A stretch of DNA of 64,000 bases from an uncultured Spirochaeta sp. (GTDB taxonomy: Bacteria; Spirochaetota; Spirochaetia; DSM-27196; Alkalispirochaetaceae): positions 1 through 64,000 of the forward strand of contig CAJWEZ010000010.1 of NCBI GenBank assembly GCA_913030605.1. The letters are read 5' to 3'. Made by a program: the position numbers and the translations under genes. The notes under the pieces were generated by a model that searched no databases, had not been told where the DNA came from, and worked only from the letters and a program-made list of their open reading frames with translations. Below, one piece after another: positions 9,017 to 46,605 of this stretch. How positions within the stretch are numbered: position 1 is the stretch's first letter; each line of letters starts with the position of its first letter.

Positions 9017-9023
9017 TTCGATC

Positions 9024-11000: not shown

Positions 11001-11046
11001 AACCAGCCCCCGACCGCGCGCCTGTCGCTATGCGTGCTGACGACGC

Positions 11047-12282: not shown

Positions 12283-13481
12283 GAGCGCGCTACCACCATA
12301 CCAACGGCGATCCGCGGCAGAACGCCGGCGGTCAACAGCCATCCACGGGAGTCGTAGCTCCCCGGGGTTCCCAGGGCATAGTGAAACCCCGCGCGCAGGA
12401 ACAGCGTCCGACGTCCGGCGGACCACTCGATCGTGGGATCGGCGAGGGACAGATACCAGTCGGTGCGCGGTGCACCGTCGGCGCTGTGAATCCAGGTGCG
12501 GCTGAACCCACCGCCGGCCGAAAAGCTGACCCGTACGGGTGAGGTCACCGGAAAGAACATATAGCCACCCGCGGCAACCGAAAGATCTCCCCGAAGAGCC
12601 GCCCGATCCCCAAAGCGCTGCCGCAGTGCGGCATCCACCTCCACAAACGATGCATCGGGCACCAGATACGCCCGCGCCCCGGTGCCGGCGCCCGTAAAGC
12701 GGCCGAGATCGAGCCATGCCGTCACGGCATAGCGCGTGCTCCGGAGGAGCGGTGGAAGCGAGACGTCGTTCTCCACCGAATCCAGCGTGACGCGCACGTC
12801 CGCCGGATGGTAGCCGCGTTTTTCCACACGGACGGGTACCGTCGTCCCGACGGCGAGGGGCGAATACGGGGCGACAAGGGAGCCGTCGGTCACCGTGCCG
12901 ATCGGCTGACCGGAAAACCGGATCGTGGCGCCTTCATCCGGCGAGCGAAACACGATCGATGCCACGCGGTCCACCCGGGGTGCATCGTCTCCATCCCCCG
13001 CCAGGAACGCCGTCAGGGGGGCCTCCATGCGAGCGATAGCGGCCCGCATCGCGTTGTAGAACGAGAGCCCCGGACGCTGACGCTCAAAGACCGACGCAAC
13101 CACCGCTCCCTGGGATACGTCGTAGATTTTCATCTGGAAGTAGACGGAGCGGCCATCGAGCAGGGTGAAACCGACAAACGCCACATCGGCGCGGGCTTCC
13201 GCCGCCGCGGCGCGGATGCCGCCGGGAGACCAGTCACCACCTCGCCCGTCCCCGTCCGTGGATTCGCCGGGTGCGGTAACCAGCCGCAGCCCCAACGAGT
13301 CCGCGAGTTCCGCCACCGCCGCCCGAACGGTCTCCTCGAACGGTTCTCCGGATCGTTGGTCGGAGAGATCCTGGAAGCTCAGGACGGCCACCGGACCGGA
13401 CACCTCACCGTCAACCGCATGCGCCCGGGCAAGAGCGGACGCAAGGATTCCGAGAGCCACGATCGCTGTGTGCCGGTTCAC
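12279..13481 (-). CDS. Secreted protein: CsgG/TolB-N-like domain, PEGA domain, C-terminal beta-barrel
   Basis: This 400-residue protein has a signal peptide (TAIVALGILASALARAHA). Residues of about 28-160 resemble the CsgG/TolB-N-type alpha/beta domain (GPVAVLSFQDLSDQ, ADVAFVGFTLLDG). A PEGA domain follows (GATIRFSGQPIGTV, VRVEKRGYHPADV), and then a C-terminal region of predicted barrel strands. PEGA domains are known from bacterial surface proteins and are thought to bind envelope components. The start is a GTG at 13481 with AAGGA about 11 bases upstream. It follows the cyclase gene by 24 bases and is coupled to the downstream gene, so it belongs to a four-gene operon. The function is not known. 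Confidence 0.76.
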   Translation of the reverse strand: MNRHTAIVALGILASALARAHAVDGEVSGPVAVLSFQDLSDQRSGEPFEETVRAAVAELADSLGLRLVTAPGESTDGDGRGGDWSPGGIRAAAAEARADVAFVGFTLLDGRSVYFQMKIYDVSQGAVVASVFERQRPGLSFYNAMRAAIARMEAPLTAFLAGDGDDAPRVDRVASIVFRSPDEGATIRFSGQPIGTVTDGSLVAPYSPLAVGTTVPVRVEKRGYHPADVRVTLDSVENDVSLPPLLRSTRYAVTAWLDLGRFTGAGTGARAYLVPDASFVEVDAALRQRFGDRAALRGDLSVAAGGYMFFPVTSPVRVSFSAGGGFSRTWIHSADGAPRTDWYLSLADPTIEWSAGRRTLFLRAGFHYALGTPGSYDSRGWLLTAGVLPRIAVGMVVARS

Positions 13482-13505
13482 CGCTGCACCGTTCCTTCAC
13501 CCACC

Positions 13506-16981: not shown

Positions 16982-17178
16982 GCGATGTATTGCTTCCCCC
17001 CACGGATGCACGTGACCCACATGAAGTGCCTGGTTGATTACAAAACAGGTCAGGAATGCAGCCTCAGCAATAGTACCTCACAATGTCTGGGGCGGCTATA
17101 GTTTTTTTCAAGAATGTGAATATTTCCTGGACTCCAGCTCACTTGCGTTTCCCACGTGTCTCCGTTAGGCTCCGAACC

Positions 17179-18750
17179 ATGACGAGTGAAAATATCGGCC
17201 GCGGGCCGACAATTGAGGTCGCGGCATTCATCGACTCAATCCGGACAGCCCTGGAGGGCTACGCCACCTGGGCGCGCGAATCCGCTGCGGCGATTGCCGG
17301 GCATCTGCGAGGCGATGCGGGGCCCCATTACCCGGCGGTGGAACAGTTCTCGCGACTCCACCGCGGCGCCCACGCCCCCCGCCCGCTTGCCACGTTCATT
17401 CCCGCTGCATACGGCGGACGCGGCCAGATCACAGCCGAGTCACTCTCGGTGCTGGAGGAACTCTCGTACACATCCCTCCCGCTCTCGCTGATCGCCGGTA
17501 TCAACGGTGCGCTCTTTCTGCAGCCGGTCTCCCGGTACGGAACGCCGGAGCTCCAGCAGCAGGTGTTTTCCCGGGTCCTGAACGACGGCGCCCTGGGTGG
17601 GCTCATGATCACCGAACCGGACTTCGGCTCCGACGCCCTCAACATGCAGACCTCCTTCGTTCCGGAGGGCGATGGGTTTCGGATTCGCGGCACCAAACAC
17701 TGGGCGGGCCTGACAGGTCACGCGGATTTCTGGCTGCTGACGACCCGGGAACAGGCAGAGGACGGCCGTCTGGGACGCAACATCAACTTCTTTGTGTGGG
17801 ACAAGTCCCGCGGTGGCATTGCGGTGGACGAGTATTTTCACAGCCTGGGTCTCGAGGAGATCCCCTACGGCAGGAACCGAATCGATACCCACGTCCCCGC
17901 TGGAAACAGGCTGCAGCCGCTGGCCAGCGGTGTGCGTATGCTGCTCGATGTCCTCCACCGCAGCCGCCTGCAGTTTCCCGGGATGGCGATGGGCTTCCTC
18001 CGTCGCATTCTCGACGAGGCCTGGGCTCATGTGCGCCGACGGCACGTCGGCGGACGCCCGCTCCACACCTACGATCAGGTCCAGGACCGCCTTGCGGAGA
18101 TCGAATCGGCATACACCGCGTGTTCGGCGATGTGCGCCTACACCTCCCGTGAGGCGTCCATCGACCGGGACTGCTCCGGCATGGCGCTGCAGGCCAACGC
18201 GATCAAGACGGTGGTGACCGACATGATGCAGGAGGCGTCTCAGTCGCTTCTGCAGCTGGTCGGTGCAAAAGGCTATCGGCGCGACAGCTACGCCGGCCGC
18301 GCCACGGTGGACTGCCGGCCGTTCCAGATCTTCGAGGGCTCCAACGATATTCTCTACGAGCAGATCGCCGACGCCGTCCTCAAGGGGATGAAGCGCGCGA
18401 AGGCCTCGAGTCTCGCGTTGTACCTGAAGACGCAGGAGCTCACCACCCGGGTTGCCGACCGCGTCCGGCACGCGTTTGATGTCGCCCCCGGCACCGACCT
18501 GCCACAGCGCGACCGCGTTGAGCTGGGTCGCGCCCTGGGACGGGTGATCACCATGCAGATGGTGGAAGAGGCGCGCGACACCGGCTTTGACGGCGGACTG
18601 GTGGAAACCGCGATGGCCACGCTCTCACGGTCGATCTCCCGAACGATGGGCGGTGTGCAACTGACCGGTTCGTCCGGCGGACTGATCACCCCGGCGGAGG
18701 ACTACCGCGCCGCGGGACACTGGCGGAGCATGGTGACGCCGGCGGGCTGA
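17179..18750 (+). CDS. Acyl-CoA dehydrogenase family protein
   Basis: This 523-residue flavoprotein has the acyl-CoA dehydrogenase signature ITEPDFGSDALNM (flavin and acyl-CoA site) and FRIRGTKHWAGLTGHADF. The C-terminal QIFEGSNDILYEQI motif contains the Glu at the position of the catalytic base in medium-chain enzymes. It is larger than typical (about 380-400 residues) because of extra C-terminal helices, as in the long-chain and bacterial FadE-like branches. The start is the ATG at 17179 (AGG about 9 bases upstream). It is monocistronic and divergent from the lipoprotein operon across roughly 200 bases, which include an AT-rich stretch near 17096-17125. The substrate is unknown. Confidence 0.88.
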   Translation: MTSENIGRGPTIEVAAFIDSIRTALEGYATWARESAAAIAGHLRGDAGPHYPAVEQFSRLHRGAHAPRPLATFIPAAYGGRGQITAESLSVLEELSYTSLPLSLIAGINGALFLQPVSRYGTPELQQQVFSRVLNDGALGGLMITEPDFGSDALNMQTSFVPEGDGFRIRGTKHWAGLTGHADFWLLTTREQAEDGRLGRNINFFVWDKSRGGIAVDEYFHSLGLEEIPYGRNRIDTHVPAGNRLQPLASGVRMLLDVLHRSRLQFPGMAMGFLRRILDEAWAHVRRRHVGGRPLHTYDQVQDRLAEIESAYTACSAMCAYTSREASIDRDCSGMALQANAIKTVVTDMMQEASQSLLQLVGAKGYRRDSYAGRATVDCRPFQIFEGSNDILYEQIADAVLKGMKRAKASSLALYLKTQELTTRVADRVRHAFDVAPGTDLPQRDRVELGRALGRVITMQMVEEARDTGFDGGLVETAMATLSRSISRTMGGVQLTGSSGGLITPAEDYRAAGHWRSMVTPAG

Positions 18751-33673: not shown

Positions 33674-33768
33674 AGACCACCTCAGCATACAGCAGGTTCA
33701 CCGCACATCGCCACTGGATGGACGGCCTCTTGCCGAGGCGCGGGAGACATGCCATCTTCACGGAACCT

Positions 33769-35229
33769 ATGGAAGCGTACCCGACTACCCGACTGGGAGA
33801 CACCCTCGAGATCACCCGAATCGTGAACGGCCTCTGGCAGGTATCCGGCGGCCACGGATCGATCGACGCCCAGGCCGCCGTTCAACACATGCATTCACTC
33901 CGCGAACGGGGGCTCACAACCTTTGACATGGCCGACCACTACGGCCCCGCCGAGGAACTCACCGGCACCCTTGTGTCTGAACTGGGGGATGAGTCCCGGG
34001 TGCAGGCGTTCACCAAATGGTGTCCCGAACCGGGAGAGATGACCGAACAGGTGGTGCGGCAGGCGATCGACCGCTCCCGGACCCGGCTGAAGAGCGCGAC
34101 GATCGACCTTTTGCAGCTTCACTGGTGGGACTACCTCGATCCGCGCTACATCGATGCGATGGCCCATCTGGACACCCTCCGAAAGGAGGGGCTCATCGCC
34201 AACCTCGGGCTCACGAACTTCAACACGACCCACCTCCGCGTCCTGGCGAGCCAGGGGACCCCGATCGTGTCCAACCAGGTCCACTATTCGCTCCTGGACA
34301 CGCGCGCCGCCGGCGCCATGACCGATGCCTGCCGCGAATACGGCGTCAAGCTGTTGTGCTACGGCACCGTTGCCGGCGGGTTTTTTAGCGAACGCTGGCT
34401 GGGGGTCGACGAACCGTCCGACGATGATCTGGCGGACAACTGGAGTCGCATGAAGTACATGCGCTTTATCCGCGCCGCCGGGGGATGGGCGGTGTTCCAG
34501 GACCTGCTGGCGGCGCTGGACACGGTTGCCAGGCGCCACGGCGTGAGTATCGCCAACGTTGCCGTCAGGTGGGTCCTGGAACAGCCGATGGTCGCGGCGG
34601 TTCTCGTGGGGACGCGCCTTGGCCTGAGCGACCACTCCGACGACAACGCCCGGATCCTGGCGTTTCCGTTCGATGCGGCGGACCTCGCCACGATCGAGAG
34701 CGCCCGGAGCGCGCTGCGTCCGATCCCCGGCGACTGTGGCGACGAGTACCGACGGGCCCCGTTCCTCACCGCTGCCGGCGATCTTTCGGATCACCAGACC
34801 CGTCAGTGGCGACCGCAGCGCTGCGAGCGCTATCCTGCGGAGCTGCCACAACGTGTGCACTCCCGCTCCGGCACCACGTGGGAATCGATCGCCTCATTTG
34901 CGCGGGCCGTTCGCCGCGGCAACACGATCACCGTGAGCGGCACCACGGCAACCTACGGCACCCGAATGATCGGCGGCGCCGATGCCGCCACGCAGGCGGA
35001 GTTCTGTCTCGACAAGATCGAGGCGGCGATACAGGAGCTGGGCGGAACGCTCGAAGACGTGGTCCGTACGCGAATATTCGTACCGAACGTGGAACGGGAC
35101 TGGGAGGCCATTGCGCGCGTCCACGGAGAACGGTTCGCGGGCATTGACCCCGCCAACACACTGGTGGGCGCCCCCCTGGTGGGAGACGGGTATCTGGTGG
35201 AGATCGAGGCCGACGCGCTGATCGTGTAG
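33769..35229 (+). CDS. Aldo/keto reductase fused to a C-terminal RidA-like domain
   Basis: This 486-residue protein has two parts. Residues of about 5-330 form an aldo/keto reductase barrel with the catalytic tetrad visible: Asp and Tyr in FDMADHYGPAEE, Lys in AFTKWCPEP and His in LLQLHWWDY. Residues of about 363-486 form a YjgF/RidA fold (ITVSGTTATYG, DKIEAAIQELGGTLEDVV, LVEIEADALIV). The segment where RidA has its catalytic arginine reads DPANTLVGAPL, so the arginine is absent and the domain is probably not a standard imine deaminase. The ATG at 33769 has GGAAC upstream; an ATG at 33718 is a weaker alternative. It is divergent from the YheO-type regulator (95 bases between starts) and probably under its control. 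Confidence 0.85.
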   Translation: MEAYPTTRLGDTLEITRIVNGLWQVSGGHGSIDAQAAVQHMHSLRERGLTTFDMADHYGPAEELTGTLVSELGDESRVQAFTKWCPEPGEMTEQVVRQAIDRSRTRLKSATIDLLQLHWWDYLDPRYIDAMAHLDTLRKEGLIANLGLTNFNTTHLRVLASQGTPIVSNQVHYSLLDTRAAGAMTDACREYGVKLLCYGTVAGGFFSERWLGVDEPSDDDLADNWSRMKYMRFIRAAGGWAVFQDLLAALDTVARRHGVSIANVAVRWVLEQPMVAAVLVGTRLGLSDHSDDNARILAFPFDAADLATIESARSALRPIPGDCGDEYRRAPFLTAAGDLSDHQTRQWRPQRCERYPAELPQRVHSRSGTTWESIASFARAVRRGNTITVSGTTATYGTRMIGGADAATQAEFCLDKIEAAIQELGGTLEDVVRTRIFVPNVERDWEAIARVHGERFAGIDPANTLVGAPLVGDGYLVEIEADALIV

Positions 35230-35239: not shown

Positions 35240-36151
35240 CTACGCGGAGTATGCGGCGGTCAGTGTTGACCGCTTTCCGGGCTGGTCCTTCGCAAACTCC
35301 CAGGTGAACACGATCGCCCCGTCCGACGGAGCGGCGGTCGCCATCGGGAGTGCTATCGCGAAATCGTCATCGCTCACCTCCATCGCCTGAACGACCGGAA
35401 CCACCGGCTTTCCCGTGGCGGTTGCCGTCCATCGCGTCATATCTCCCACCCAGGTCGGTGGCTGGTCCTGCAGACCGAAGTGGCACATGGGACTGTAGTA
35501 GTCAAGGAGCGGGTTCAATAGCGAAAGATCCTGACCCAGCGCGCCAGGGCGGGCCCCCGCGTATCGCTCGTCATCCCAGGGGACCATGTGCAGGCCGATC
35601 GGCGTTCGGTGCGGTTTCCCGTCGCGGAGTGCCACGATCTGGCGCGCGAACTCCGCTATCTGCGCCGCTTTCCACCGTTCCCAGTCCGGTCCCACCGGTT
35701 CGCCCCCGTAAAGCGACCGGCACCGTTGACAGGTACACCCCTCCAGCAGGCTCTCCCGGCCCCTGGCTGCCTCCCAGTAACCGGGGAACCGCAGAAAGTT
35801 GAGGTTGATTCCGCTGACAAACTCGTAGTCCAGAAGCCGGTCAAACTCCTGGAGAAGCTCCTCGCGGAAACCGGGATGGGTCGGACAGACTCCGTGATAC
35901 CACCCGGCCGCGATCTCCATCGGTTCACCGTCCCGGCCCACGGGGCGGCAGTCCGGGTACCGCGTCCACCACGCCTCACCCTGAAACACGTCCTTCACGA
36001 GATAGATCTCCAGACCGTCGTGCGCCAGGCGCCGACCGAGATCCGGGTCCAGGTTCTCGGGGGCAACAAACACCGCGGACATGCCCAACCCGGTGGCCTC
36101 GGCCACGGCGTCGTCGGTCAATGGAGTCATGAAAAATACACCCTTGGTCAT
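35240..36151 (-). CDS. Uncharacterised protein, possible glycoside-hydrolase-like TIM barrel
   Basis: This 303-residue cytoplasmic protein has no signal peptide. Alternating strands and helices (GVFFMTPLTDD, GMSAVFVAPENLD, GLEIYLVKDVF, GINLNFLRFPGYWE, TPIGLHMVPWDDERY, GAIVFTWEF) suggest a TIM barrel. It has a CTCQRC cysteine cluster after the central LRFPGYWE strand, reminiscent of uncharacterised glycoside-hydrolase-like proteins, but I cannot assign a family. AAGG lies just upstream of the ATG at 36151. It converges with the reductase-RidA fusion gene (10 bases apart) and is divergent from the chemoreceptor gene. Confidence 0.65.
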   Translation of the reverse strand: MTKGVFFMTPLTDDAVAEATGLGMSAVFVAPENLDPDLGRRLAHDGLEIYLVKDVFQGEAWWTRYPDCRPVGRDGEPMEIAAGWYHGVCPTHPGFREELLQEFDRLLDYEFVSGINLNFLRFPGYWEAARGRESLLEGCTCQRCRSLYGGEPVGPDWERWKAAQIAEFARQIVALRDGKPHRTPIGLHMVPWDDERYAGARPGALGQDLSLLNPLLDYYSPMCHFGLQDQPPTWVGDMTRWTATATGKPVVPVVQAMEVSDDDFAIALPMATAAPSDGAIVFTWEFAKDQPGKRSTLTAAYSA

Positions 36152-36239
36152 ATCGCCTTCCATCGTAGCACGACCCGGGCGGCACGCGTGCTTTCTCTGT
36201 CCAGTTCCCATCTACCGTGAATTCGAGTACCATCCGGCA

Positions 36240-38063
36240 ATGATTACAAAAAAGGGCATATTTCTCTTCCTGCTCGCGGGCGTCGGCGGGCCGATCGCCA
36301 TCGTGCTGACCGATATCCTCATGGGTGCCGCGTCCGTCGCCGGCGTGTTTGCCGGCGTGCGGTGGCCGCTCCTTGTATCCACCGTGGGGCTTCTCGCAGT
36401 TGGCGGGTGGATCCTGATCCGTACGGCCCGTAGAGTCGCCGCGCTGTCCACGCAGGCTCCGCAAAAAGCGTTCACGGTTGCCAGCCACGGGCCGGCACTG
36501 CTCCTCCCGTGGAGTATCGCTCACAATGTGACGTTTTCCCTTTTCCTTCACGCCGGGACACCCGCTGCCGGCGACACCCTCGGCCTGGTCATCCTGTCGG
36601 TGTACGCCGGCGCCGTGGGGATGTTTTTTGCGATTCTTCTGGTGATCGGCACCGCGGTCGATCTGGAGTCGATGCTGCCCGTGGAAGTTGCGCTCTCTGG
36701 GGAGGCGCGTATCCTTGGCCTCACAGCCCGGTTCTATCTCTCGATCACGATCACGATCGTCGCGTTCGTATTCGGCGCGTTCGCAGTCGTGCTGCTGCCG
36801 GTCTACCTCGGCCACCCAGTAGCTTTCGCGTTCCAGCGGGCGGCGGTGGTGGCGATCCCGTTCGTGCTGTGCACGGTACTGGAGGTCCAGTTTCTCGCGG
36901 GCATGACAACCCGACCGATCAGCCAGGCGGTACCGAAGCTCCAGGCGCTTATCGAGGGAACCCTTACCGAGAGACTGTCCGTTCGGGGAGTGGACGAGGT
37001 CGCTTTGTCGCTCCACATGGTGAACCGATTCGTGAGTTCGGTCGCGGACTCCATCGGCGAGTCCAGCTCCGCGGCCGGAAACAGTGAACAGCTCGCGGGA
37101 TCGCTCGACGACCAGGCGGCCCAACAGCGCGACGCGGTTGCCTCGGTCTCGGACGCTGTCGATGCAGTCGCCCGTCAGATCGGAGAACTTGGAGACCGGG
37201 TCGACACCACCGTCTCCGCCACCGAACAGATATCGAGAACGCTGAATAGCCTGAAAAAACTGGTCGCCGGCCAGAAGTCAGCGGTTCAAGAGACCGCGAG
37301 TTCCGCGGAAGAGCTGCAGGCGTCCTCCGCTAACGTCGTGGACGTCTCCGAAACCCGGGAACGCGCCGCCCGCGAGCTCGCCGCTACCATTCGCGACAGC
37401 AGATCCGAGCTCGACACCGCGATCAACACGATGGAGACGATGGCGAGCCGCGCCGGCGAACTCACTGAACTCAACGGGCTCATTGCCGGTCTCGCCGCCC
37501 AGACCAATCTTCTTGCGATGAACGCCGCGATCGAGGCGGCCCACGCCGGAGATTCCGGGAAGGGCTTTGCCGTGGTAGCCACCGAGATCCGCAACCTCGC
37601 GGAGTCCGCGTCCAGAAACTCCAGGGATAGTTCCGCGTTTCTCAAGGAGATGGTCGCCGGAATCCGTGAAACAAGTGAGGTTATGGGGACCGTTCAGCGA
37701 TCGTTTGCCCAGGTGGAGAGCGAGACCGGCGAGGTCACCTCGTCCATGTCCGAGATCGTGGTCGCGGCCCGCGAGATGAGCGATAGCGCCAGGGGCATTA
37801 GCACCATGATGGAACGCCTTCGCGATGGGAGTCGGGAGATTGTGGACGGCGCGGCGCAGATCAGCGAGGGCGTGTCTGAGATCAATCGAGTGAGCCAGTC
37901 GTCGAAAGACTCGGCCCGGGAAACCCGCGAGCGAATCCAGGACGTGGAACAGAGCACCACCGTTCTCACCGGAATCGTGGAGGAGATCACGCGCGTATCC
38001 GCCACGCTCCGGACGTCGGCACGAACGCTGGCCGCCAGACTCAGGGAGTACCGACTGGTGTAG
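36240..38063 (+). CDS. Methyl-accepting chemotaxis protein with polytopic membrane N-terminus
   Basis: This 607-residue chemoreceptor has about six hydrophobic segments in the first 215 residues (FLFLLAGVGGPIAIVL, LLVSTVGLLAVGGWILI, LGLVILSVYAGAVGMFFAIL, SITITIVAFVFGAFAVVLL and others) with only short loops, so there is no periplasmic ligand domain. A HAMP-like linker follows, then a long four-helix-bundle signalling domain containing the highly conserved hairpin tip (AAQTNLLAMNAAIEAAHAG, GFAVVATEIRNLAE). It ends LREYRLV without a CheR-tether pentapeptide. The ATG at 36240 has no strong ribosome-binding site. It would couple to CheA/CheW encoded elsewhere; ligand or membrane-state sensing is unknown. 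Confidence 0.88.
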   Translation: MITKKGIFLFLLAGVGGPIAIVLTDILMGAASVAGVFAGVRWPLLVSTVGLLAVGGWILIRTARRVAALSTQAPQKAFTVASHGPALLLPWSIAHNVTFSLFLHAGTPAAGDTLGLVILSVYAGAVGMFFAILLVIGTAVDLESMLPVEVALSGEARILGLTARFYLSITITIVAFVFGAFAVVLLPVYLGHPVAFAFQRAAVVAIPFVLCTVLEVQFLAGMTTRPISQAVPKLQALIEGTLTERLSVRGVDEVALSLHMVNRFVSSVADSIGESSSAAGNSEQLAGSLDDQAAQQRDAVASVSDAVDAVARQIGELGDRVDTTVSATEQISRTLNSLKKLVAGQKSAVQETASSAEELQASSANVVDVSETRERAARELAATIRDSRSELDTAINTMETMASRAGELTELNGLIAGLAAQTNLLAMNAAIEAAHAGDSGKGFAVVATEIRNLAESASRNSRDSSAFLKEMVAGIRETSEVMGTVQRSFAQVESETGEVTSSMSEIVVAAREMSDSARGISTMMERLRDGSREIVDGAAQISEGVSEINRVSQSSKDSARETRERIQDVEQSTTVLTGIVEEITRVSATLRTSARTLAARLREYRLV

Positions 38064-38113: not shown

Positions 38114-39946
38114 CTACCCCCCAAGCCGGTCCAGGGCGTCAACAACGGGGGACGTCGTGCTGTGTCCACCCTCGGCCCGCAAACGTTCACGGGCCAGGAG
38201 CGATCGATACAGCTCCTCACACGCCTCCGGATAGCCGATGCCGCGAATATGAGCGATGATCCGGCTCCCCCGGTCGATGAGCTTCTTGTTGGTCGGGTCG
38301 AGCTGCACCATCCAGTTGCCCCTGATGCGGTTCATGATGCCCATCGACGCCGTGCTGATCGTGTTCATCACGAGTTTCGTAGCCACGTGGTGCCACAGTA
38401 GGACCGGACTCTCCGGCACGCGGACCGATACGGTGTACCCGGCCCCGGTGGCGCCGCGCCGACGCTCGTCGCCACCGGCCGCGCCGATCCGCAGGAGGTC
38501 TGCAGGGTGCGGATTGCGTGGTTCTTTCGCGCCACCCGCAATCCCCGAACCGTCGGGGGCCTCGGCGTGAGCGCCGTCCTCGCCGACCGCGATTGAGAGG
38601 AAAAGGTGGGGCGTCACCGCGGTCCGGGTGGGGTCCGGCTCGTTGCCGATCAGGTACCTGGCGATCTCGTCCGCGCCGAGCGACGGCGGAGCGGCCCCAA
38701 GCGTTTCCCAGGTACCCATTCGCCGGTAGTCGTCGGCGGTCCAGTCGATCCCGCGCGGCGCCCGGCGAAGCATCGCAAACCACGCATCGGGACTGCTGCG
38801 CAGCGGATCTTTGGCGTACGCCCAGGATACGGGCGCCGACTCATCGTCGGCGGGGCGGAACGGCGGGAGCATGAACGTGGGAGAGCGTTCCGTGGTGTCA
38901 CTGAACACGTCGAGAAGGAACCGGGACGCCAGATAGGTCACTCTTCCGCCGCCCTCGTAGATCTGACTCTCCCGCTCGGCGAGCGCTGCCATCGTCTGAC
39001 GGTTGTCGATCTCGGAAAGCTCTCCGAGGAGTCGCGCAAACCGATTTGCCTGCTCCAGGCGGTCGCCGGTGGAGACCGCCTCTCCGTCAACGGTTCGAAA
39101 GACCTCTTCGAGCGCCGAGCCGACGACGACCATTTCGACCGTCGTCGCCTGCATGCGGGTGGAACCGGTGAGCGCCATGGACCCGGTATACAGGTCCAGC
39201 ACCGTAACGCGGGGATCCTCGATGACCTGCCGTGACCGCTCGATACTGCCCACCAGCACCGCGGTCGGATTGTTGTAGACGAGAAACACCTCGCATCCCC
39301 GTTCCAGCCCCTCCTCGACCGTTCCGATGACCGACGATGTCTCGCCTCCTTCGGTGATCGCCACCAGGATATCCCCCCGCTGGAGTCCGAGGTCTGCGAT
39401 CTGGCGGCGACCATACGCCGCATGGTCCTCGAAACTTTCCACAGATCGAATCAGCGCGCGATCGCCGCCGGTCATTACGCTTGCGGCCTGCTCCGCTTTT
39501 CTGAGGGCGGGATGGGTGCCGTCCGTCCCGCGGGCGGCATCGCCGGGACCGACGCCGGCTTTGTCTTCCCAGTACTGCCGCCACATTTCCTCCAGCATCA
39601 TCGCCAGACGCCCCGTGCTCCCGCAACCGGAGAAGCAGATCTTCCGGTCGGTGGTGGCGGCCCGCCCGACGGCCGAGACAAGGCTCCCGTACTCCGGACT
39701 CAGAAACACGCGACGCGCCACCGGGGGAATGTCGGCGTCCACGTTCAGGAGCAGCGCGATCCCCGCGGCGGTATCCTGCTGAACGACGGAGCTGAAGCGC
39801 TCGGTATATGGATGTGGCTGTTCGGTCGGAAGGTGCCCGAGCTGGAACTGCGTCTCGTGATGAACGAACTGTCGCGCGTTCTCCTCCGCCCGTCGCCGGA
39901 TCTCCGGGTCGTCTGCGTAGATGGCGTATTCCGATGTGGTGCTCAC
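38114..39946 (-). CDS. Double-length MurQ/GCKR-like SIS-domain protein (putative MurNAc-6-phosphate etherase)
   Basis: This 610-residue protein contains two SIS halves. The first has the sugar-phosphate motif FSGCGSTGRLAM (about 105-116), the segment RSVESFEDHAAYG that matches the region of MurQ holding a catalytic Glu, and LVAITEGGETSSVIGTVEEG. The second half has the MurQ C-terminal signature (NTISTASMGIMNRIRGN, then DPTNKKLIDRGSRII). Bacterial MurQ is about 300 residues; this length resembles the eukaryotic glucokinase regulator GCKR. A low-complexity insert lies near residues 460-510. MurQ cleaves the lactyl ether of MurNAc-6-P to give GlcNAc-6-P. A GTG start at 39946 has GGAGG upstream. 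It is the last gene of the cell-wall sugar operon. Confidence 0.78.
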   Translation of the reverse strand: MSTTSEYAIYADDPEIRRRAEENARQFVHHETQFQLGHLPTEQPHPYTERFSSVVQQDTAAGIALLLNVDADIPPVARRVFLSPEYGSLVSAVGRAATTDRKICFSGCGSTGRLAMMLEEMWRQYWEDKAGVGPGDAARGTDGTHPALRKAEQAASVMTGGDRALIRSVESFEDHAAYGRRQIADLGLQRGDILVAITEGGETSSVIGTVEEGLERGCEVFLVYNNPTAVLVGSIERSRQVIEDPRVTVLDLYTGSMALTGSTRMQATTVEMVVVGSALEEVFRTVDGEAVSTGDRLEQANRFARLLGELSEIDNRQTMAALAERESQIYEGGGRVTYLASRFLLDVFSDTTERSPTFMLPPFRPADDESAPVSWAYAKDPLRSSPDAWFAMLRRAPRGIDWTADDYRRMGTWETLGAAPPSLGADEIARYLIGNEPDPTRTAVTPHLFLSIAVGEDGAHAEAPDGSGIAGGAKEPRNPHPADLLRIGAAGGDERRRGATGAGYTVSVRVPESPVLLWHHVATKLVMNTISTASMGIMNRIRGNWMVQLDPTNKKLIDRGSRIIAHIRGIGYPEACEELYRSLLARERLRAEGGHSTTSPVVDALDRLGG

Positions 39947-39985
39947 TGCTTCCTCCGTGTGTCATCGATCATCTGGTACCCTGTG

Positions 39986-41095
39986 TCATCCGTATCGCCG
40001 CAGGGCGGACTCATGAACGAGTCGTCGAAACGCGAGTATCCCGTCCGTCGTGGATTCCCTGCCGTAGTACAGTCGACTTGTGAGGATGGTAACCGCCACC
40101 CCGGTCGCCGGATCTCCCCATACGCTGGTGCCCGTGAACCCGGTATGCCCGAATGCGCCCGCACCGAACCCACCGCGCTGCGTATCCGGCACGATCTGCA
40201 TCCCCAGACCCCGTCGCTCCGTGCTCCCCCGGGGCCGATCGTGCAGCGGGCTCCCGAGCGGGAGTACCCTGCGAGGCTTCACCGCCGCCAGCACCGTCTC
40301 ACGCGTCAGCAGCGGATCTCGCCGGTGTACGCCGAGCGCCGCGCCCCATTCCCTGAGAAACAGCTCATGAACCGCCGGAAGCGTCCCGAACAGACCGGCG
40401 TTTCCGGCCGCACCACCGAGCACGTGGGCGTTCTCGTCGTGGACCGTTCCCTGTACGCGCCGCTGTCGCCACGAACACCACTCCGTGGGAACGTACAGCT
40501 CCCGGTCGGACGGGGTCGGCGAAAACCCGAGCGATCCGTCACGCCCTGCCGCGCCCCCCGCGAAATCGGAAAACGCCGCGGCCACCCCCTGACCGCAGAC
40601 CGTCTGGACGACCTCCCCGAGCAGTATGAACCCCGTGCAGCTGTACACGATCTGTCTGCCCGGCGCCGCTGTCGGTTCAACCGTGAACAACCGGGCGCGG
40701 GCCTCCTCCCGTTGGTCTACCTCGGGCGACCGACCCTGCCACAGATCGGGCAGCGCCGGAAGCCCGCCGCTGTGCGTAAGGAGGTCTTCGATCGTCAACG
40801 CCGCGGTCGCTCCGGTAAGCCCCGTCAGGATCTCCCCGATCCTGGTGGAGAAATACACATTCCCGTGTTCAACCAGCGAAAGGATCAGCGGCGCTGTGGC
40901 GAGAAATTTCGTGAGGGACGCGAGATCGAAACGCGAGCTGTCCGTGGGAACCGGGAGTTCCTCGTCCGTCGTGTACGAGGCCGGTTCCAGGGGATCGCCG
41001 CCACAGTAGCGACCGAAATACCCATCGAACAGTACTGTGTTTCCCCGTGAAACCCTGATCGCCGCGCAGGGCACCGCCCGCTCGCAGTGGTTCAT
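39986..41095 (-). CDS. Serine hydrolase of the beta-lactamase/AmpC-like family, apparently cytoplasmic
   Basis: This 369-residue penicillin-recognising fold has the SxxK motif (LASLTKFLAT, Ser60/Lys63), a YxN-like tyrosine motif (IVYSCTGFILLGE) and an HTG triad (FGHTGFTGTS) in place of KTG. There is no signal peptide (MNHCERAVPCAAIRVSRGN), so it should act in the cytoplasm. In Bacillus subtilis the neighbouring gene of namZ encodes the related AmiE, an N-acetylmuramyl-L-alanine amidase, and that is the most attractive role here; esterase activity is an alternative. Its ATG overlaps the namZ stop by 4 bases. Confidence 0.84.
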   Translation of the reverse strand: MNHCERAVPCAAIRVSRGNTVLFDGYFGRYCGGDPLEPASYTTDEELPVPTDSSRFDLASLTKFLATAPLILSLVEHGNVYFSTRIGEILTGLTGATAALTIEDLLTHSGGLPALPDLWQGRSPEVDQREEARARLFTVEPTAAPGRQIVYSCTGFILLGEVVQTVCGQGVAAAFSDFAGGAAGRDGSLGFSPTPSDRELYVPTEWCSWRQRRVQGTVHDENAHVLGGAAGNAGLFGTLPAVHELFLREWGAALGVHRRDPLLTRETVLAAVKPRRVLPLGSPLHDRPRGSTERRGLGMQIVPDTQRGGFGAGAFGHTGFTGTSVWGDPATGVAVTILTSRLYYGRESTTDGILAFRRLVHESALRRYG

Positions 41096-42306
41096 CGGTA
41101 GTGTCTGGCGCTCGCCGACGCGTCGGCGTAGGACGACGCGTCCCGGCAGAGAATCCCATGCGCCTCCTCCGCCGACGCTCCCGCATCCACCGCGTCGCGG
41201 AACGCGCGCCCACCGGCGAGGTGGTCAACAAACGACCGCTCCGGGTCCTCCCACAGCGGGCGCCACGCGAAGCGCGTCGGATCCTGGCGACGCACCGCGC
41301 AAAGGAGTTCGACCCCGGTCCGAACGGAATCGAACACCTCAGAATCCGTGACGTGAAGCTGAATGCCCCTGCACGGCTCGCCTGCGTACGCCGAAAACGT
41401 CGGCACGAAATCGACAACCGAAAACGCCACCCCCGGAAGAGCGCGGGCAGATACATCGTCGCGCAGCGACTCGGCATCGATCCACGGCGCACCGATCGTC
41501 TCGAACGGTCGCGTCGTGCCACGCCCCTCCGAAATGTTGGTGCCTTCGAACAGACAGGTTCCGGGATAGACGTACGCGGTCTCGATCGTAGGAAGATTGG
41601 GCGACGGCTGTTTCCACGGAAGCCCGGTGGCGCGATACGCCGTGTCACGACGGTAGTGCTCCATCCACAGCACGATCGGCTCCGAGATCCACGGTTTCGC
41701 CGCTCCGCCTCGTGCCCCCTGGTGATAGCGCGCGTAGGATCGGGCAAAATCCCCGGCAAGGTAGCGGGCAAACTCCCCCATTGTCAGGCCGTGCCGAATC
41801 GCCAGGCCGTAGCCGCCCACTTCGCTCTCAGCGCCCCGCGGGAGTGGCCCGCCCTCGATCCTCGTTCCTCCGATCGGGTTCGGACGGTCGCAGACGAACG
41901 TTTGAACTCCCGACTCGGCGCACTCTTCGATCACCGCTGCGGCCGTGTAGATGTAGGTGTAGTACCGGCACCCGATCTCCTGGATATCGATGACGACGGC
42001 GTCGAGATCCTCAATGTGACCGGGTTCCGGTCTGTGGCGGGTGCCGTACAGAGACACCACCTCAATTCCCTGGACGATCGAATCGTCGACGTCCACGGTG
42101 TCCTGTGCCTGTGCGACAAAGCCGTGTTCCGGCCCGAACAGTCTGACCAGATTGAATCCCGACTGCAGAAGTGCCTGTGGAACGGTTCGTCCGTCGGGAA
42201 GAATCGTTGACTGGTTGGTCAGTAGTCCGATCCGGCGCCCGGCGAACTCGTCCGCCCGGTCCATCAACACCTCGATCCCGAGACGCACCGGGGCGCTGGC
42301 TGTCAT
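41092..42306 (-). CDS. namZ: NamZ-like exo-beta-N-acetylmuramidase (DUF1343)
   Basis: This 404-residue protein matches the DUF1343 pattern throughout: LLTNQSTI, LVRLFGPEHGF, SLYGTRHRPEP, DIQEIGCRYYTYIYT, DRPNPIGG, RHGLTMGEFA, LPWKQPSPNLPT, VYPGTCLFEGTNISEGRGTT and GAPWID. NamZ of B. subtilis releases MurNAc from the non-reducing end of peptidoglycan fragments. Unlike secreted NamZ proteins, this one has no signal peptide (MTASAPVRLGIEVLMDRADE), so it probably works on fragments already imported. The ATG at 42306 overlaps the permease stop (ATGA); the longer upstream frame is rejected. It is coupled to the serine hydrolase downstream. Confidence 0.9.
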   Translation of the reverse strand: MTASAPVRLGIEVLMDRADEFAGRRIGLLTNQSTILPDGRTVPQALLQSGFNLVRLFGPEHGFVAQAQDTVDVDDSIVQGIEVVSLYGTRHRPEPGHIEDLDAVVIDIQEIGCRYYTYIYTAAAVIEECAESGVQTFVCDRPNPIGGTRIEGGPLPRGAESEVGGYGLAIRHGLTMGEFARYLAGDFARSYARYHQGARGGAAKPWISEPIVLWMEHYRRDTAYRATGLPWKQPSPNLPTIETAYVYPGTCLFEGTNISEGRGTTRPFETIGAPWIDAESLRDDVSARALPGVAFSVVDFVPTFSAYAGEPCRGIQLHVTDSEVFDSVRTGVELLCAVRRQDPTRFAWRPLWEDPERSFVDHLAGGRAFRDAVDAGASAEEAHGILCRDASSYADASASARHYR

Positions 42307-43154
42307 CGGAACGTCCCGGCAAGCATCCCTCTGATGAAGTATCGGGACATCACCAGATACAGAAGCACGATCGGAAGAATTGACAGTCCAAGAAACGCAA
42401 AGAGTTCGCCCCACTGGACCGAGTGCTCACCAAAAAAGTTTGCCACCGCCAGCGGCAGGGGGCTCAACCGTTCCGTTCGCAGAAAGATCAGCGGGAAAAA
42501 GAAGTCGTTCCAGATCGGAACCGCGTTGTAGATCACCGTGATCACGAGTCCCGATGTCGCCAGCGGCAGCATCACCCGTCCGAACAGCTGGTACTCGTTG
42601 GCACCGTCGATCCGGCCGGCATCCTCGAGGTTCGCGGGAAGTGCGAAGAAAAACCCGTAGAAGATCAGGATCGAGAACCCGAACCGCCACGCGGCGTACA
42701 CGATGATGAGTGAGAGGCGCGTATCGAGGATCCCGATGTCGCGCATCAGCAGGAACAGCGGCAACGAGGCGAGGCGCAACGGAACCATCAATCCCAGCAG
42801 AAAGAAGGAGTACAGCAGTCCCGAGATCCGGAACTTGTACCGGGCAAGCGCGTACGCCGCACCGGTACTGAGCGCCAGGTTGAGGACCATCGCGCCCGCC
42901 GTAATCACCACGCTGTTTGCGAGGTACAGCAGGAAGTTCTGTCCGACGAGGATGTTCGTGTAGTTGCTGAATTGTGGATCCGTGGCGAGTCGCAGCGGCG
43001 CCTCGAAAATCTCTCGCGTGGTGCGAAGAGACGAGTTGTACATGAACACCAGCGGTACGATGATTGCCAGCGCGTACAGACCGAGAAACGCGTACACCGC
43101 GACCGACCGCTTCACCCCGAGTTCCCGAATTCGTTTCATCTTCTGTGGATTCAT
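42303..43154 (-). CDS. Sugar ABC transporter permease (CUT1, MalG/second permease type)
   Basis: This 283-residue inner-membrane permease has six predicted spans, starting AVYAFLGLYALAIIVPLVFM. The EAA loop reads LEDAGRIDGANEYQLFGRVMLPL, and the C-terminal half carries IWNDFFFPLIFL, as usual for MalG-like CUT1 subunits. The ATG at 43154 has AAGG in GGAAGGGTGACC and starts 2 bases after the first permease. It pairs with the MalF-type permease and the binding protein at 44163-45449. No ATPase gene is present, so a shared MsmX/MsmK-type ATPase is expected elsewhere. Confidence 0.92.
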   Translation of the reverse strand: MNPQKMKRIRELGVKRSVAVYAFLGLYALAIIVPLVFMYNSSLRTTREIFEAPLRLATDPQFSNYTNILVGQNFLLYLANSVVITAGAMVLNLALSTGAAYALARYKFRISGLLYSFFLLGLMVPLRLASLPLFLLMRDIGILDTRLSLIIVYAAWRFGFSILIFYGFFFALPANLEDAGRIDGANEYQLFGRVMLPLATSGLVITVIYNAVPIWNDFFFPLIFLRTERLSPLPLAVANFFGEHSVQWGELFAFLGLSILPIVLLYLVMSRYFIRGMLAGTFR

Positions 43155-43156
43155 GG

Positions 43157-44098
43157 TCACCCTTCCAGCTGGACGCGCTTTTTGTCCAGAAGCCGGTTGA
43201 CTCCCAGGGAGATCACGGCGGTCGCGACTACGATGACGATACCGATCGTGGCCCCCAGCCCCTTGTCGGCCAGACCCGTGATACCTCCGAATGCCGTTCG
43301 ATAGAACAGCGTCCCCAGGACGTCGGTGGCGTAGTTCGGTCCACCCGTAGGCCCGGTCAGGGAATAGACGATGTCGAACATTCGCAGGTTGCCGGCGATG
43401 GTCAGGATCAGGACCGTCAGCAGCTGCGGGACGATCAACGGCAGGTAGATATCCTTGATTCGGTGAAAACCCGACACGCCGTCGAGTTTCGCAGCCTCGA
43501 TGATCGGCTGCGGTATGTTGTTCAGTCCGGACAGGAAAATCAGGGTCGGAAACCCGGCCCACTGCCAGATATTGATCAGCAGAATCGTGGTGAGCGCCGT
43601 CCGGGGGTCACCCAGCCACGGGAACGCAAACTCGGGATCTCCGATCAGGCGTATGGCGGCGTTGATCATACCCCACGACGGGTGGAGGAGCAGACTGAAC
43701 AGAAACCCCACCACGACGATCGAAAGGGTTACGGGCAGAAACAGGAGTGCCCGAAAAAACTTGGTGCCGGGAAGTTCCTGGAACAGCATCAGGGCGAAGG
43801 CGAACCCGACCGTCGACTGAAACGCAACCACAAATATCAGCGAATACGCGTTGTGTCCGGCGGCGTTCCAGAATCGCGCCGAGATCGGATTGTCGGACGC
43901 GAACACGGTCCGGAAGTTATCCAGACCGACGAACGCCTCCCGCTCCAGTCCGTTCCACGAATACAGGCTGTATCCGAATGAACTGAACACGGGATAGATG
44001 ACGAGCGCGACAAAGAAGATCGTACCCGGAAGCAGAAACAGGGCGAACGCGATCTTTCGCGACGTGAGTATTCGGTCCCAACTCCTAGACAGATTCAC
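43157..44098 (-). CDS. Sugar ABC transporter permease (CUT1, MalF/first permease type)
   Basis: This 313-residue permease has N-terminal spans LFLLPGTIFFVALVIYPVF and the EAA loop EAAKLDGVSGFHRIKDIYLP. FPTLIFLSGLNNIP is the usual feature upstream of the EAA loop. It has six spans in the CUT1 style. A GTG start at 44098 is supported by GGAGG seven bases upstream. It is separated from the binding-protein gene by 64 bases containing a very stable hairpin. By context it imports amino sugars or peptidoglycan fragments. Confidence 0.92.
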   Translation of the reverse strand: MNLSRSWDRILTSRKIAFALFLLPGTIFFVALVIYPVFSSFGYSLYSWNGLEREAFVGLDNFRTVFASDNPISARFWNAAGHNAYSLIFVVAFQSTVGFAFALMLFQELPGTKFFRALLFLPVTLSIVVVGFLFSLLLHPSWGMINAAIRLIGDPEFAFPWLGDPRTALTTILLINIWQWAGFPTLIFLSGLNNIPQPIIEAAKLDGVSGFHRIKDIYLPLIVPQLLTVLILTIAGNLRMFDIVYSLTGPTGGPNYATDVLGTLFYRTAFGGITGLADKGLGATIGIVIVVATAVISLGVNRLLDKKRVQLEG

Positions 44099-44121
44099 GA
44101 GAGTCCTCCAGTGTGATCAGT

Positions 44122-44145
44122 GTAGCCTCCCCGAAGGGAGGCTAC
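44122..44145 (-). other. Stable UUCG-loop hairpin between binding-protein and permease genes
   Basis: A perfect 10-bp stem (GTAGCCTCCC paired with GGGAGGCTAC) is closed by a TTCG loop on the transcribed minus strand, forming the exceptionally stable C(UUCG)G tetraloop. It has no T run. Its position after the binding-protein cistron fits a 3' stabiliser that raises binding-protein over permease expression. Confidence 0.72.
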
Positions 44146-44162
44146 TATGTCGCGGGGTTCTT

Positions 44163-45449
44163 TCAGTTCTGGAACGGTTCGTACCAGGAAGCGATCTGCG
44201 TTTGGACTTCCTCCGCCACTTCCTGAGGAGTCAGGTCACCCTGCATCATGCCCTGAAGGGCGTTCTGCAGCGCCACCGAGCCCGTGGGCTGTTCCCACCT
44301 GAACCCGACCAGCATGATGTACGGCGTGGTTTCGTGTTCGTTCATGAGGTCGGTGAACTGGCTGAGGACCGGCACACTGTTGGGGTCGGCGGAGACGCCG
44401 GGAATCGGCGAAATCTGTCCAAGAAGGTTGGAAAACATCGTTCCAAACTCTTCGCTCGCCATGTACCGGGCGAGTTCCACCGCCTCGTCGGGGTGTTCGG
44501 TTGCCTCGTTCACGCCGTACGAGCCGTCGGCCCACGTCCCGATGTACTGCGGAGAACCTGCCGGAGCCGGGGCTGCGAATACACCGATCTCGAGGTCCGG
44601 ATTCTGCGCGCGGAAGTTTGCCGCCTCAAACGATCCCCCGATATACATGGCCGCCTGTTCGGTAAAGAAGTTGGCCTGCATGCTCGCGAAGTCGAGTCCC
44701 ATGAACCCGCGGGGCATGTACGGGATCAGCGACTGCATCCGGGTGAGAGCGCGGACAAATCGCGGATCGGTAAACGTGGTGTCGCCGGCGACTACCTCCT
44801 GATAGAACTCGTTCCCACCGTAGAAGTTGGGTCCGATCGTTCCAAACATGATCTCCAGCATCCACGCCGCCTGACCACCGTTGGCGAGGGGCGTGACACC
44901 GTTGTTCTTGAGGGTGTCGAGGACGGTGATGAACTCGTCCCAGGTGGTGGGCACGGAGAGGTTGTTCTCCCGGAAGATGCGCTCGTTGTAGAAAATGCCC
45001 AGGGCCTGATTGGCAAACGGAACACCGTAGATGACACCGTCCTCGCGGCCCGAGGCGCTCGCGATCGAGGCGTCCGAGAACGAGCTCAGGGCCTCGATCT
45101 TGTCGCCCAGAGGCATGAGGAACGGCGTGTACCGCTGGAGTCCGCCGTACGCGCGAAGCTGCATCACGTCCGGACCCTGTCCCCCCTCGAGGGCAGTCGC
45201 GAGCACGGTGTTGTACTCGGTGTTCTTTACCGTGCGGAACTCAACGTTGATGCCCGGGTGGCTTTCCTCGAACGCATCGAAGATCGTCGCGTACCCCTCT
45301 TCATCCTCGCCACGCCAGCTCCACACTTCCAGTGTGACGGTATCGGCTTCACTCACCCCGGCACCGTCGGATTCCTGTTCGCCACCGGCGAAGGCGACGG
45401 CCAGAAACGCGAGGCCGAAAAGCAACGACAGAACTACCAGCTTTCTCAT
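44163..45449 (-). CDS. Sugar ABC transporter substrate-binding protein (SBP family 1)
   Basis: This 428-residue exported protein has a signal peptide (LVVLSLLFGLAFLAVAFA) followed by GGEQES, a typical spirochaetal start without lipobox cysteine. Family 1 binding-protein features include LEVWSWRGEDEEGYATIFDA, FEESHPGINVEF, the GPDVMQLRAYGG segment, GIFYNERIFRENNLSVPTTW and YVNEA-like YGVNEATEHPDEAVELARYM. It is the first gene of the operon leading to two permeases, NamZ, a serine hydrolase and the MurQ-like protein, so the likely ligand is MurNAc or a MurNAc-containing saccharide. AAAGGAGG precedes the ATG. The promoter and operator upstream are described separately. Confidence 0.92.
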   Translation of the reverse strand: MRKLVVLSLLFGLAFLAVAFAGGEQESDGAGVSEADTVTLEVWSWRGEDEEGYATIFDAFEESHPGINVEFRTVKNTEYNTVLATALEGGQGPDVMQLRAYGGLQRYTPFLMPLGDKIEALSSFSDASIASASGREDGVIYGVPFANQALGIFYNERIFRENNLSVPTTWDEFITVLDTLKNNGVTPLANGGQAAWMLEIMFGTIGPNFYGGNEFYQEVVAGDTTFTDPRFVRALTRMQSLIPYMPRGFMGLDFASMQANFFTEQAAMYIGGSFEAANFRAQNPDLEIGVFAAPAPAGSPQYIGTWADGSYGVNEATEHPDEAVELARYMASEEFGTMFSNLLGQISPIPGVSADPNSVPVLSQFTDLMNEHETTPYIMLVGFRWEQPTGSVALQNALQGMMQGDLTPQEVAEEVQTQIASWYEPFQN

Positions 45450-45469
45450 GTGCCCTCCTTTGAGCAGTC

Positions 45470-45529
45470 GGAATTAGGTTTGTTGTAATTCCTATTAACC
45501 ATCGTAGATACAGTCACTGCCGGTGTCAA
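45470..45529 (-). promoter_or_regulatory. Promoter and ROK-type operator of the cell-wall sugar operon
   Basis: On the minus strand TTGACA (45524-45529) and TACGAT (45501-45506) are separated by exactly 17 bases. Just downstream of the -10 lies an inverted repeat GGAATTA/TAATTCC (45470-45476 and 45486-45492) flanking CAACAAAC. The 18-bp block 45475-45492 matches 15 of 18 bases of a block at the start of the ROK gene (46605-46622), suggesting a common repressor. Confidence 0.68.
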
Positions 45530-45543
45530 GAAAAAAAGGACGG

Positions 45544-46605
45544 TCAGCCCGCTTCGATTGCGCGAAAGAGCGGGAAACTCCGATCGGCGAGCAGAAACCG
45601 CATCGACGAATAGGCTGCGCCGAAGGCCACAGCCTGCAGGCCATCGCTGATGGAGGACACGCGTACACCGCTCCCCGATTCGTCCGTCGCGATCCTGGAG
45701 AAGCGACGAATGCGTTCCGAAAGCGGCTCGAGGATCCCGTCCAGGTCGCCACCGAGAACGATCTCGTCGATACCGGTGATGTTTGCCACCAGCGCGAGAG
45801 ATCGCCCCAGCTCATCGATCGACCGTTCGGGGTCCTTCGGGAGCATTTTGAAGTACGGCCGCAGGAGGTGTGTGATCGCCTTGCCGTGGCACAGCTCGTT
45901 CCGCATCACGAGGCCGGCCCCGATTCCGATATCCTCGTCCGAGCCACCGGGACGGAACTCGACGATGATGAGCAGCAGGTTTCCGGTACCCCGCAGCCCC
46001 GACTCGCGAAGGACGGCGGCCTGGGCGTCGTTCAGGAGGGAAACGGGGACCTGAAGCACCGTTTCGAGCGGCTCTGCGATGTTCAGAGGATCCCGAACGT
46101 GAAGGGCGTGGGAGATTTCGATCGATCGATTGGTCTCGTCGACCTGCCCGCTGACACCAACGCCGAGGGTGACGAGCCCTATGCCGTGCTCCCGGTAACG
46201 GGTATCGAGCGAGGCTCGGAGCCTGGCTGTCTCGACCGCCAGGGTGTCTATCGCGGTGGGACCGTAGTGCTCGACCGCGATCTCTTCGCCCCCGATGTAC
46301 GAACCGCACATGTCGACCGCAACGAGGCGAATCGTCGGGTACGTGAGTTCCACGCCGATGCTGTATGCGACGTTCGGTTCTATGCCCAGCAGGATCGGGG
46401 GACGTCCCCCCTTGGGGCCGGAGTTTTCCTCTCCGTACTGGTACAGAATTCCGGCGGCGATCATCTGATCCACCAGCGCGCCCACGGTCGATCGATCCAG
46501 GTGCAGCTCCCGGGCAAGGTCGGCGCGGCTACGGCCTGACCGGTGCCACAGGGACTCGAGAATTCGAAACAGGTTGGTGCGTCGAGGGCGGTTCTTGGTC
46601 GGCAT
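45544..46605 (-). CDS. ROK family transcriptional repressor (NagC/XylR type)
   Basis: This 353-residue protein has an N-terminal winged helix-turn-helix (NLFRILESLWHRSGRSRADL, LDRSTVGALVDQMIAAGIL). A ROK sugar-binding/kinase-like fold follows (YSIGVELTYPTIRLVAVDM, TLGVGVSGQVDE, GIGAGLVMRNELCHGK). The zinc-binding Cys cluster of ROK glucokinases is missing, so it is a regulator and not a kinase. It lies upstream of, and in the same direction as, the cell-wall sugar operon, with its own promoter. The shared operator in both promoters suggests that it represses the operon and itself until an amino-sugar ligand binds. Confidence 0.9.
   Translation of the reverse strand: MPTKNRPRRTNLFRILESLWHRSGRSRADLARELHLDRSTVGALVDQMIAAGILYQYGEENSGPKGGRPPILLGIEPNVAYSIGVELTYPTIRLVAVDMCGSYIGGEEIAVEHYGPTAIDTLAVETARLRASLDTRYREHGIGLVTLGVGVSGQVDETNRSIEISHALHVRDPLNIAEPLETVLQVPVSLLNDAQAAVLRESGLRGTGNLLLIIVEFRPGGSDEDIGIGAGLVMRNELCHGKAITHLLRPYFKMLPKDPERSIDELGRSLALVANITGIDEIVLGGDLDGILEPLSERIRRFSRIATDESGSGVRVSSISDGLQAVAFGAAYSSMRFLLADRSFPLFRAIEAG

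Follow-up and report, generated by a model that had tools for sequence, protein, structure and literature searches.

The 64,000-nucleotide stretch analysed here (hereafter, the window; contig CAJWEZ010000010.1 of assembly GCA_913030605.1, an uncultured Spirochaeta sp.) carries a seven-gene operon that is probably a unit for the import and catabolism of peptidoglycan fragments, and whose last gene encodes a 610-aa protein built like the vertebrate GKRP, with two tandem SIS domains and a lid. The system is a variant of known peptidoglycan sugar salvage. Its most interesting part is the GKRP-like gene, which a preliminary description of the same DNA had misread as MurQ-like and for which we predict a lactyl etherase activity.

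The GKRP-like protein

Against the MurQ equivalog model TIGR00274, the 610-aa protein scores 80.6 bits, below the cut-off of 302 (NCBIfam), whereas the ordinary MurQ of locus L060 reaches 361.8 bits. By contrast, its match to GKRP_SIS_N (PF22645) lies above the Pfam cut-off (37.9 versus 27 bits). GKRP_SIS_2 (PF22198) and the lid (PF20741) stay below Pfam reporting at E ≤ 0.001, and the lid is visible by profile alignment and fold only. Its PDB matches are to GKRP and, over two separate segments, to MurQ. An AlphaFold (AF2) model built from 18 homologues (predicted local distance difference test, pLDDT, 87.9; predicted template modelling score, pTM, 0.90) displays two SIS folds and a lid in the SIS1–SIS2–lid order of GKRP, and in a Foldseek search with this model the best matches are full-length GKRPs (4bb9, TM 0.66/0.67), with MurQ behind at half coverage. 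An ordinary MurQ at 38114–39946 is ruled out by score, length (610 aa, whereas MurQ has about 300 aa and a single SIS domain) and fold; the last gene encodes a tandem-SIS and lid protein of the GKRP build. No other MurQ relative was found in its own genome. The bacterial GKRP-like family is broad and poorly annotated: at least 541 stretches encode members, and the 80 best that were listed belong to Spirochaetota, Planctomycetota, Verrucomicrobiota, Lentisphaerota, Kiritimatiellota, Bacteroidota, Armatimonadota, WS1 and others.

The ligand residues of GKRP (PMC4109836, Fig. 1B) were transferred onto the protein by profile alignments and then tallied in 89 homologues. E170, R264, K555, L556 and R559 are invariant (89/89) and N553 is nearly so (88/89). 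The equivalents of GKRP E153, E348, R259, N512, K514, L515 and R518 are kept in the 610-aa protein, whereas GKRP V180, S183 and H351 are replaced by E199, E202 and P356. The resulting Glu-Gly-Gly-Glu loop (E199–E202) is invariant, and at the loop-2 position that matches the second serine of GlmS-type loops all 89 homologues have Gly, adjoining an invariant Glu. The glutamates E173 in SIS1 and E353 in SIS2 are each invariant in 89/89; E173 corresponds to GKRP E153 and, by spacing, to MurQ E114, and E353 corresponds to GKRP E348 and MurQ E83. MurQ is active as a dimer, and its catalytic glutamates are E83 and E114 (Escherichia coli numbering). In the 610-aa protein Glu is absent from the SIS1 position matching E83; the GAGTSGR loop is gone from SIS2, which keeps D-T-T-E-R-x-P-T-F (D-A-S-E-C-P-P-T-F in MurQ). 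Because the two glutamates are split between the SIS halves, a single-site lactyl etherase is predicted, namely, an asymmetric internal pseudo-dimer in which both halves of the one remaining site would come from the same chain, the second site having been lost.

Thus, relative to MurQ (TIGR00274; PDB 4s12, 4lzj), SIS1 and the lid align and both catalytic glutamates are kept, but the protein has double the length, a predicted internal pseudo-dimer with one composite site, and a score below the cut-off. With vertebrate GKRP (PDB 4bb9, 3w0l) it shares the domain layout, a full-length fold match and most ligand-site residues; however, identity is about 15–18%, and the protein is bacterial and encoded in sugar-import operons, whereas GKRP is a kinase inhibitor. 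The same layout and fold, together with the binding of fructose phosphates by vertebrate GKRP at the equivalent site (PMC4109836), would suit a sugar-responsive, non-enzymatic regulator of a sugar kinase. We consider such a role very improbable: the two catalytic glutamates of MurQ are conserved in all 89 homologues, the neighbourhoods of homologues hold enzymes acting upstream and downstream of an etherase step, a partner kinase is rarely adjacent, the operon otherwise has no etherase and no second MurQ relative is present in the genome.

The operon and its proposed pathway

All seven open reading frames (ORFs) lie where the preliminary description had placed them, on the minus strand throughout, from 46605 down to 38114 (Table 1), and six of its seven labels were matched by Pfam and NCBIfam models (ROK and helix-turn-helix (HTH), SBP_bac_1, two BPD_transp_1, NamZ_N with NamZ_C, and PF00144). 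The seven genes form one operon. The stop of the second permease gene and the start of namZ share an ATGA overlap, as do the stop of namZ and the start of the PF00144 hydrolase gene; because of these overlaps, found by sequence inspection, NamZ probably starts at the ATG at 42306 rather than at the upstream 42414. A search for an operator upstream of the ROK gene returned short inverted repeats only, nothing convincing. Within the operon, neither the ORFs nor NCBIfam and Pfam matches revealed a phosphotransferase system (PTS) MurP, an RpiR-type MurR or a NagZ. The reported lack of NagZ thus holds for the cluster; it does not hold for the genome, which encodes NagZ-type GH3 proteins elsewhere (36% and 30% identity).

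In the pathway that we propose, the ROK repressor would control the CUT1 ATP-binding cassette (ABC) importer, which would take up a fragment containing N-acetylmuramic acid (MurNAc), probably MurNAc linked to N-acetylglucosamine (MurNAc-GlcNAc) or a peptide form. In the cytoplasm, the AmiE-like protein would strip the peptide from MurNAc, NamZ would free MurNAc at the non-reducing end and the GKRP-like tandem-SIS etherase would remove the lactyl group, yielding D-lactate and GlcNAc (or GlcNAc-6-phosphate, GlcNAc-6-P).

The family assignments of the individual proteins are consistent with this scheme. The regulator matches PF00480 (41 bits) and MarR/HTH_24 (Pfam), and its homologues head the same operon in L044, L046, L047, L050, L051 and L053. 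The binding protein (44163–45449) matches the CPR_0540 and NgcE-type (GlcNAc/chitobiose) binding proteins in NCBIfam, and its PDB relatives include NagB2 (7eho), which binds chitin oligosaccharides. The binding protein and two permeases are the importer parts recognised by Pfam in the operon. No ATPase is encoded in the cluster, and the rest of the genome was not searched for one; presumably it is shared and encoded elsewhere. Both domains of NamZ (GH171) clear their Pfam cut-offs (NamZ_N, 204 versus 26.9 bits; NamZ_C, 162 versus 25 bits), and the protein matches PDB 4k05 with E = 1e-50. With the start at 42306, NamZ, like the PF00144 protein, lacks a signal peptide; cleavage is therefore predicted to occur after import. 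By inspection, other Spirochaetia NamZs also lack an obvious signal sequence at the start, and most NamZs of Planctomycetes and Bacteroidetes begin with one. The PF00144 protein (125.4 bits; best NCBIfam match PBP4B) contains SxxK (SLTK) and HTG motifs. Since B. subtilis AmiE (YbbE) also belongs to PF00144 (PMC10653849, Table 1), our protein is likely an AmiE counterpart, an assignment made from context within a functionally broad family. The beta-lactamase fold noted in the preliminary description stands, and the protein is probably not an extra hydrolase.

Conservation and neighbourhoods

Searching 297 genomes of the class with the 610-aa protein gave matches at E ≤ 1e-5 in 56, of which about 23 carry the long protein; the weaker matches are mostly of ordinary MurQ length. 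The protein was not found in six other genomes of the same genus. The identical seven genes in identical order occur at L044, in a spirochaete of another family (identities: ROK protein 65.8%, binding protein 83.6%, permeases 85.3% and 82.3%, NamZ 61.1%, hydrolase 54.8%, SIS protein 66.5%), and because of this shared order the grouping is not due to chance, which bears out the seven-gene cluster originally described. The tree places the window protein and that of L044 together as a pair (Shimodaira–Hasegawa-like approximate likelihood ratio test, SH-aLRT, 99). This pairing and the patchy occurrence suggest that the operon has been laterally transferred. The ROK–binding protein–permease–permease–SIS core is also present in L046, L047, L050, L051 and L053; L045 has it together with the hydrolase, and L048 has a form cut by the contig end. 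In L046 (10129–10761) and L047 (7647–8279), a HAD-family phosphatase gene lies between the permease and GKRP-like genes; its product could be a sugar-phosphate phosphatase. Considered as a possible MupP counterpart, it matched only generic HAD and glucose-1-phosphatase-like models.

The 80 listed loci whose neighbourhoods were compared are the best matches to the spirochaete query, and frequencies are therefore biased. NamZ is encoded near the GKRP-like gene in five loci of the Spirochaetia set (L044, L052, L055, L057, L060) and in 9 of about 70 drawn loci outside the fetched set; it occurs together with a PF00144 protein in L044, L052, L057 and L060, and with NagZ beside it in L055. An L-Ala-D/L-Glu (AEE)/DgcA-type epimerase is found in L052 and L060. 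GlcD-type 2-hydroxyacid dehydrogenases are encoded in L055, L060 and L065, accompanied by EtfAB in L060 and L065; they would fit D-lactate, which is released when the lactyl ether is cleaved, although the substrates of GlcD-type enzymes include other 2-hydroxyacids as well. In Planctomycetes, the homologous gene is divergent from an AnmK–MurQ–sodium symporter (SSS) unit (L118, L122, L124, L127, L143, L144, L153; AnmK confirmed in L127), usually with NamZ and/or a PF00144 protein nearby. Overall, protein families and recurring neighbourhoods support the earlier proposal of ABC-fed peptidoglycan-fragment salvage under a ROK regulator and without a PTS.

Several observations weigh against this assignment. 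The similarity of the 610-aa protein to MurQ is low in sequence, and SIS2 alone matches MurQ weakly (hhalign E = 0.0027, probability 11%), so that the equivalence of E353 and E83 is drawn from three sources in combination: the motif, the alignment anchored on the lid and the structure of GKRP. The ligand of the CUT1 binding protein is not readable from its sequence, several Spirochaetia loci have the core operon but neither NamZ nor the PF00144 protein, and in several Verrucomicrobia, Lentisphaerae and Kiritimatiellota loci the neighbours are a 2-keto-3-deoxy-6-phosphogluconate (KDPG) aldolase or DUF4838. Some family members may thus act on other ethers. An operon for another amino sugar or an ether-linked sugar acid would accommodate the binding-protein sequence, the KDPG aldolase adjoining some distant homologues and the N-acylglucosamine 2-epimerase encoded in the L056, L058 and L064 operons (474.7 bits in L056, under its 600-bit cut-off). 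We nevertheless regard it as unlikely, given the repeated presence of NamZ, AmiE-type proteins, NagZ, AEE-type epimerase, AnmK and MurQ next to homologues from several phyla.

Among the distant loci, L126, L147 and L152 (Kiritimatiellota/Lentisphaerota/Verrucomicrobiota) have a KDPG/KHG aldolase gene directly upstream of the GKRP-like gene and no recognised peptidoglycan genes adjoining it; a different substrate is possible for these proteins. In the Bacteroidota loci L141, L132 and L145, the GKRP-like gene is found with clusters C11/C25, for which SusC/SusD is suggested by size alone, and in L132 and L145 also with a major facilitator superfamily (MFS) transporter gene.

Phosphorylation state of the substrate

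The preliminary description predicted a MurNAc kinase encoded elsewhere. No such kinase was found inside the operon, and a search of the genome, which is 94% complete, recognised none of the three known types (MurK, AnmK and AmgK), leaving two stand-alone ROK kinases. The AnmK search of this genome found none. BadF is present just as domains inside a 1513-aa protein, plus one 22-bit match, and no stand-alone BadF/MurK-type protein was found. None of five APH matches (one SrkA-type, another with zero NCBIfam matches, the rest without clear assignment) was recognisable as AmgK, a type excluded less firmly, by family resemblance and without an AmgK-specific model. Similarly, the single-contig relative G026, which has the core operon, gave neither an ordinary MurQ match nor an AnmK above cut-off nor a stand-alone BadF, and its APH proteins are SrkA-type or without assignment, with no recognisable AmgK. 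Where AnmK is encoded in the Spirochaetia genomes G061, G046 and G121, it adjoins ordinary MurQ and not the long protein. In the complete Phycisphaerales chromosome carrying L122, BadF matches fall solely in a 1580-aa fused protein, and the GKRP-like gene, NamZ and an AmiE-type gene lie beside AnmK and ordinary MurQ. The substrate of AnmK is anhydro-MurNAc, and the enzyme is not known to accept MurNAc; the product of NamZ is free MurNAc. An ordinary MurQ is encoded in L060 as well (7333–18367), a locus rich in peptidoglycan genes, where GKRP-like, RpiR, BadF kinase, NamZ, epimerase, PF00144, GlcD, EtfA, EtfB and MurQ genes are clustered.

Two versions of the etherase step can be considered. 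In one, which we give somewhat less than an even chance, an unlinked kinase, most likely of the ROK family, would make MurNAc-6-phosphate (MurNAc-6-P) and the GKRP-like protein would act as a fused MurQ. Consistent with this, the sugar-phosphate site of GKRP is largely kept (T111, T/S198, R264, N553, K555, R559), the genome encodes the two stand-alone ROK kinases, and a ROK kinase and a NagB-like gene adjoin importer genes in L064, with the same families beside the GKRP-like gene in L065. It fits less well with the failure to recognise AnmK, MurK-type or AmgK-type kinases in either genome, the absence of ordinary MurQ from G026, and the glycine invariably found at the loop-2 second-serine position. 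More tentatively, the GKRP-like family may be a kinase-independent lactyl etherase acting on unphosphorylated MurNAc. This version is favoured by the lack of recognised kinases, the ordinary MurQ nearby, the invariant Glu-Gly-Gly-Glu loop and the 2-epimerase, an enzyme of unphosphorylated sugars, in three operons. The phosphate loop alone, considered as proof of an unphosphorylated substrate, is not decisive, as ordinary MurQs vary there too, and the argument is further weakened by GKRP, whose loop is in part similar and yet binds phosphate esters.

Comparison with known systems

The operon resembles the B. subtilis murQ-murR-murP-amiE-nagZ-ybbC(namZ) cluster (PMC5061867, PMC10653849) in that a single regulated cluster encodes NamZ, an AmiE-type protein of PF00144 and a member of the MurQ superfamily. 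It differs in having an ABC importer in place of the PTS MurP, ROK in place of the RpiR-type MurR, no NagZ in the cluster, a GKRP-like tandem-SIS protein in place of MurQ, and NamZ and AmiE-like proteins predicted to be cytoplasmic. Since NagZ and AmiE of B. subtilis act extracellularly (PMC5061867), the order proposed here, import and then cleavage, would be different. In the MurT-MurK-MurQ system of Tannerella forsythia, MurNAc is likewise imported unphosphorylated via a non-PTS transporter (PMC10465942), but that system relies on MurK, a kinase dedicated to MurNAc, and on an ordinary MurQ, whereas no MurK, AnmK or AmgK was recognised here. Streptomyces NagS, a GlcNAc-6-P dehydratase (PMC12680351), is also a MurQ-related SIS enzyme with a distinct reaction; unlike the 610-aa protein, it has a single SIS domain, is homodimeric and belongs to a separate MurQ-related clade. 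MurQ has been termed the sole known lactyl etherase (PMC6572805), and in mycobacteria a non-MurQ lactyl etherase was inferred, the enzyme not being identified (PMC6572805, PMC13041923).

The proposed pathway would provide a testable route by which bacteria without a MurNAc PTS use the cell walls of others, with cleavage after import. If unphosphorylated MurNAc is the substrate, its cleavage by this protein would constitute a second way to open the lactyl ether of muramic acid. Furthermore, a likely function would be assigned to a broad bacterial family that shares its architecture with human GKRP, a point relevant to the origin of GKRP from an etherase. GKRP reportedly derives from a bacterial MurNAc-6-P etherase (Veiga-da-Cunha 2009). 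Bacterial GKRP-like proteins may already have been assayed, which would lower the novelty of our proposal.

Gene coordinates and flanking ORFs

Table 1. Genes of the operon in order of transcription, with the matches on which their names are based
Product	Position	Strand	Matches and features
ROK-family regulator, 353 aa	45544..46605	(-)	winged helix and degenerate ROK domain
CUT1 sugar-binding protein, 428 aa, N-terminal signal sequence	44163..45449	(-)	PF01547
CUT1 permease 1, MalF/UgpA type, 313 aa	43157..44098	(-)	PF00528, 66 bits
CUT1 permease 2, MalG/UgpE type, 287 aa	42303..43166	(-)	PF00528
Predicted NamZ-family exo-beta-N-acetylmuramidase, no signal peptide	41092..42306	(-)	NamZ_N and NamZ_C
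Putative AmiE/PBP4B-type beta-lactamase-fold hydrolase, 369 aa, no signal peptide	39986..41095	(-)	PF00144
GKRP-like tandem-SIS and lid protein, 610 aa, predicted lactyl etherase	38114..39946	(-)	GKRP_SIS_N, fold model

Beyond the last gene of the operon, the minus-strand ORF at 35240–36211 (323 aa) has zero Pfam or NCBIfam matches at E ≤ 0.001 and overlaps the start of the opposite-strand ORF at 36081–38063. The plus-strand ORF at 33718–35229 encodes a 503-aa protein in which an aldo/keto reductase (PF00248) is fused to a C-terminal RidA/L-PSP domain (PF01042).

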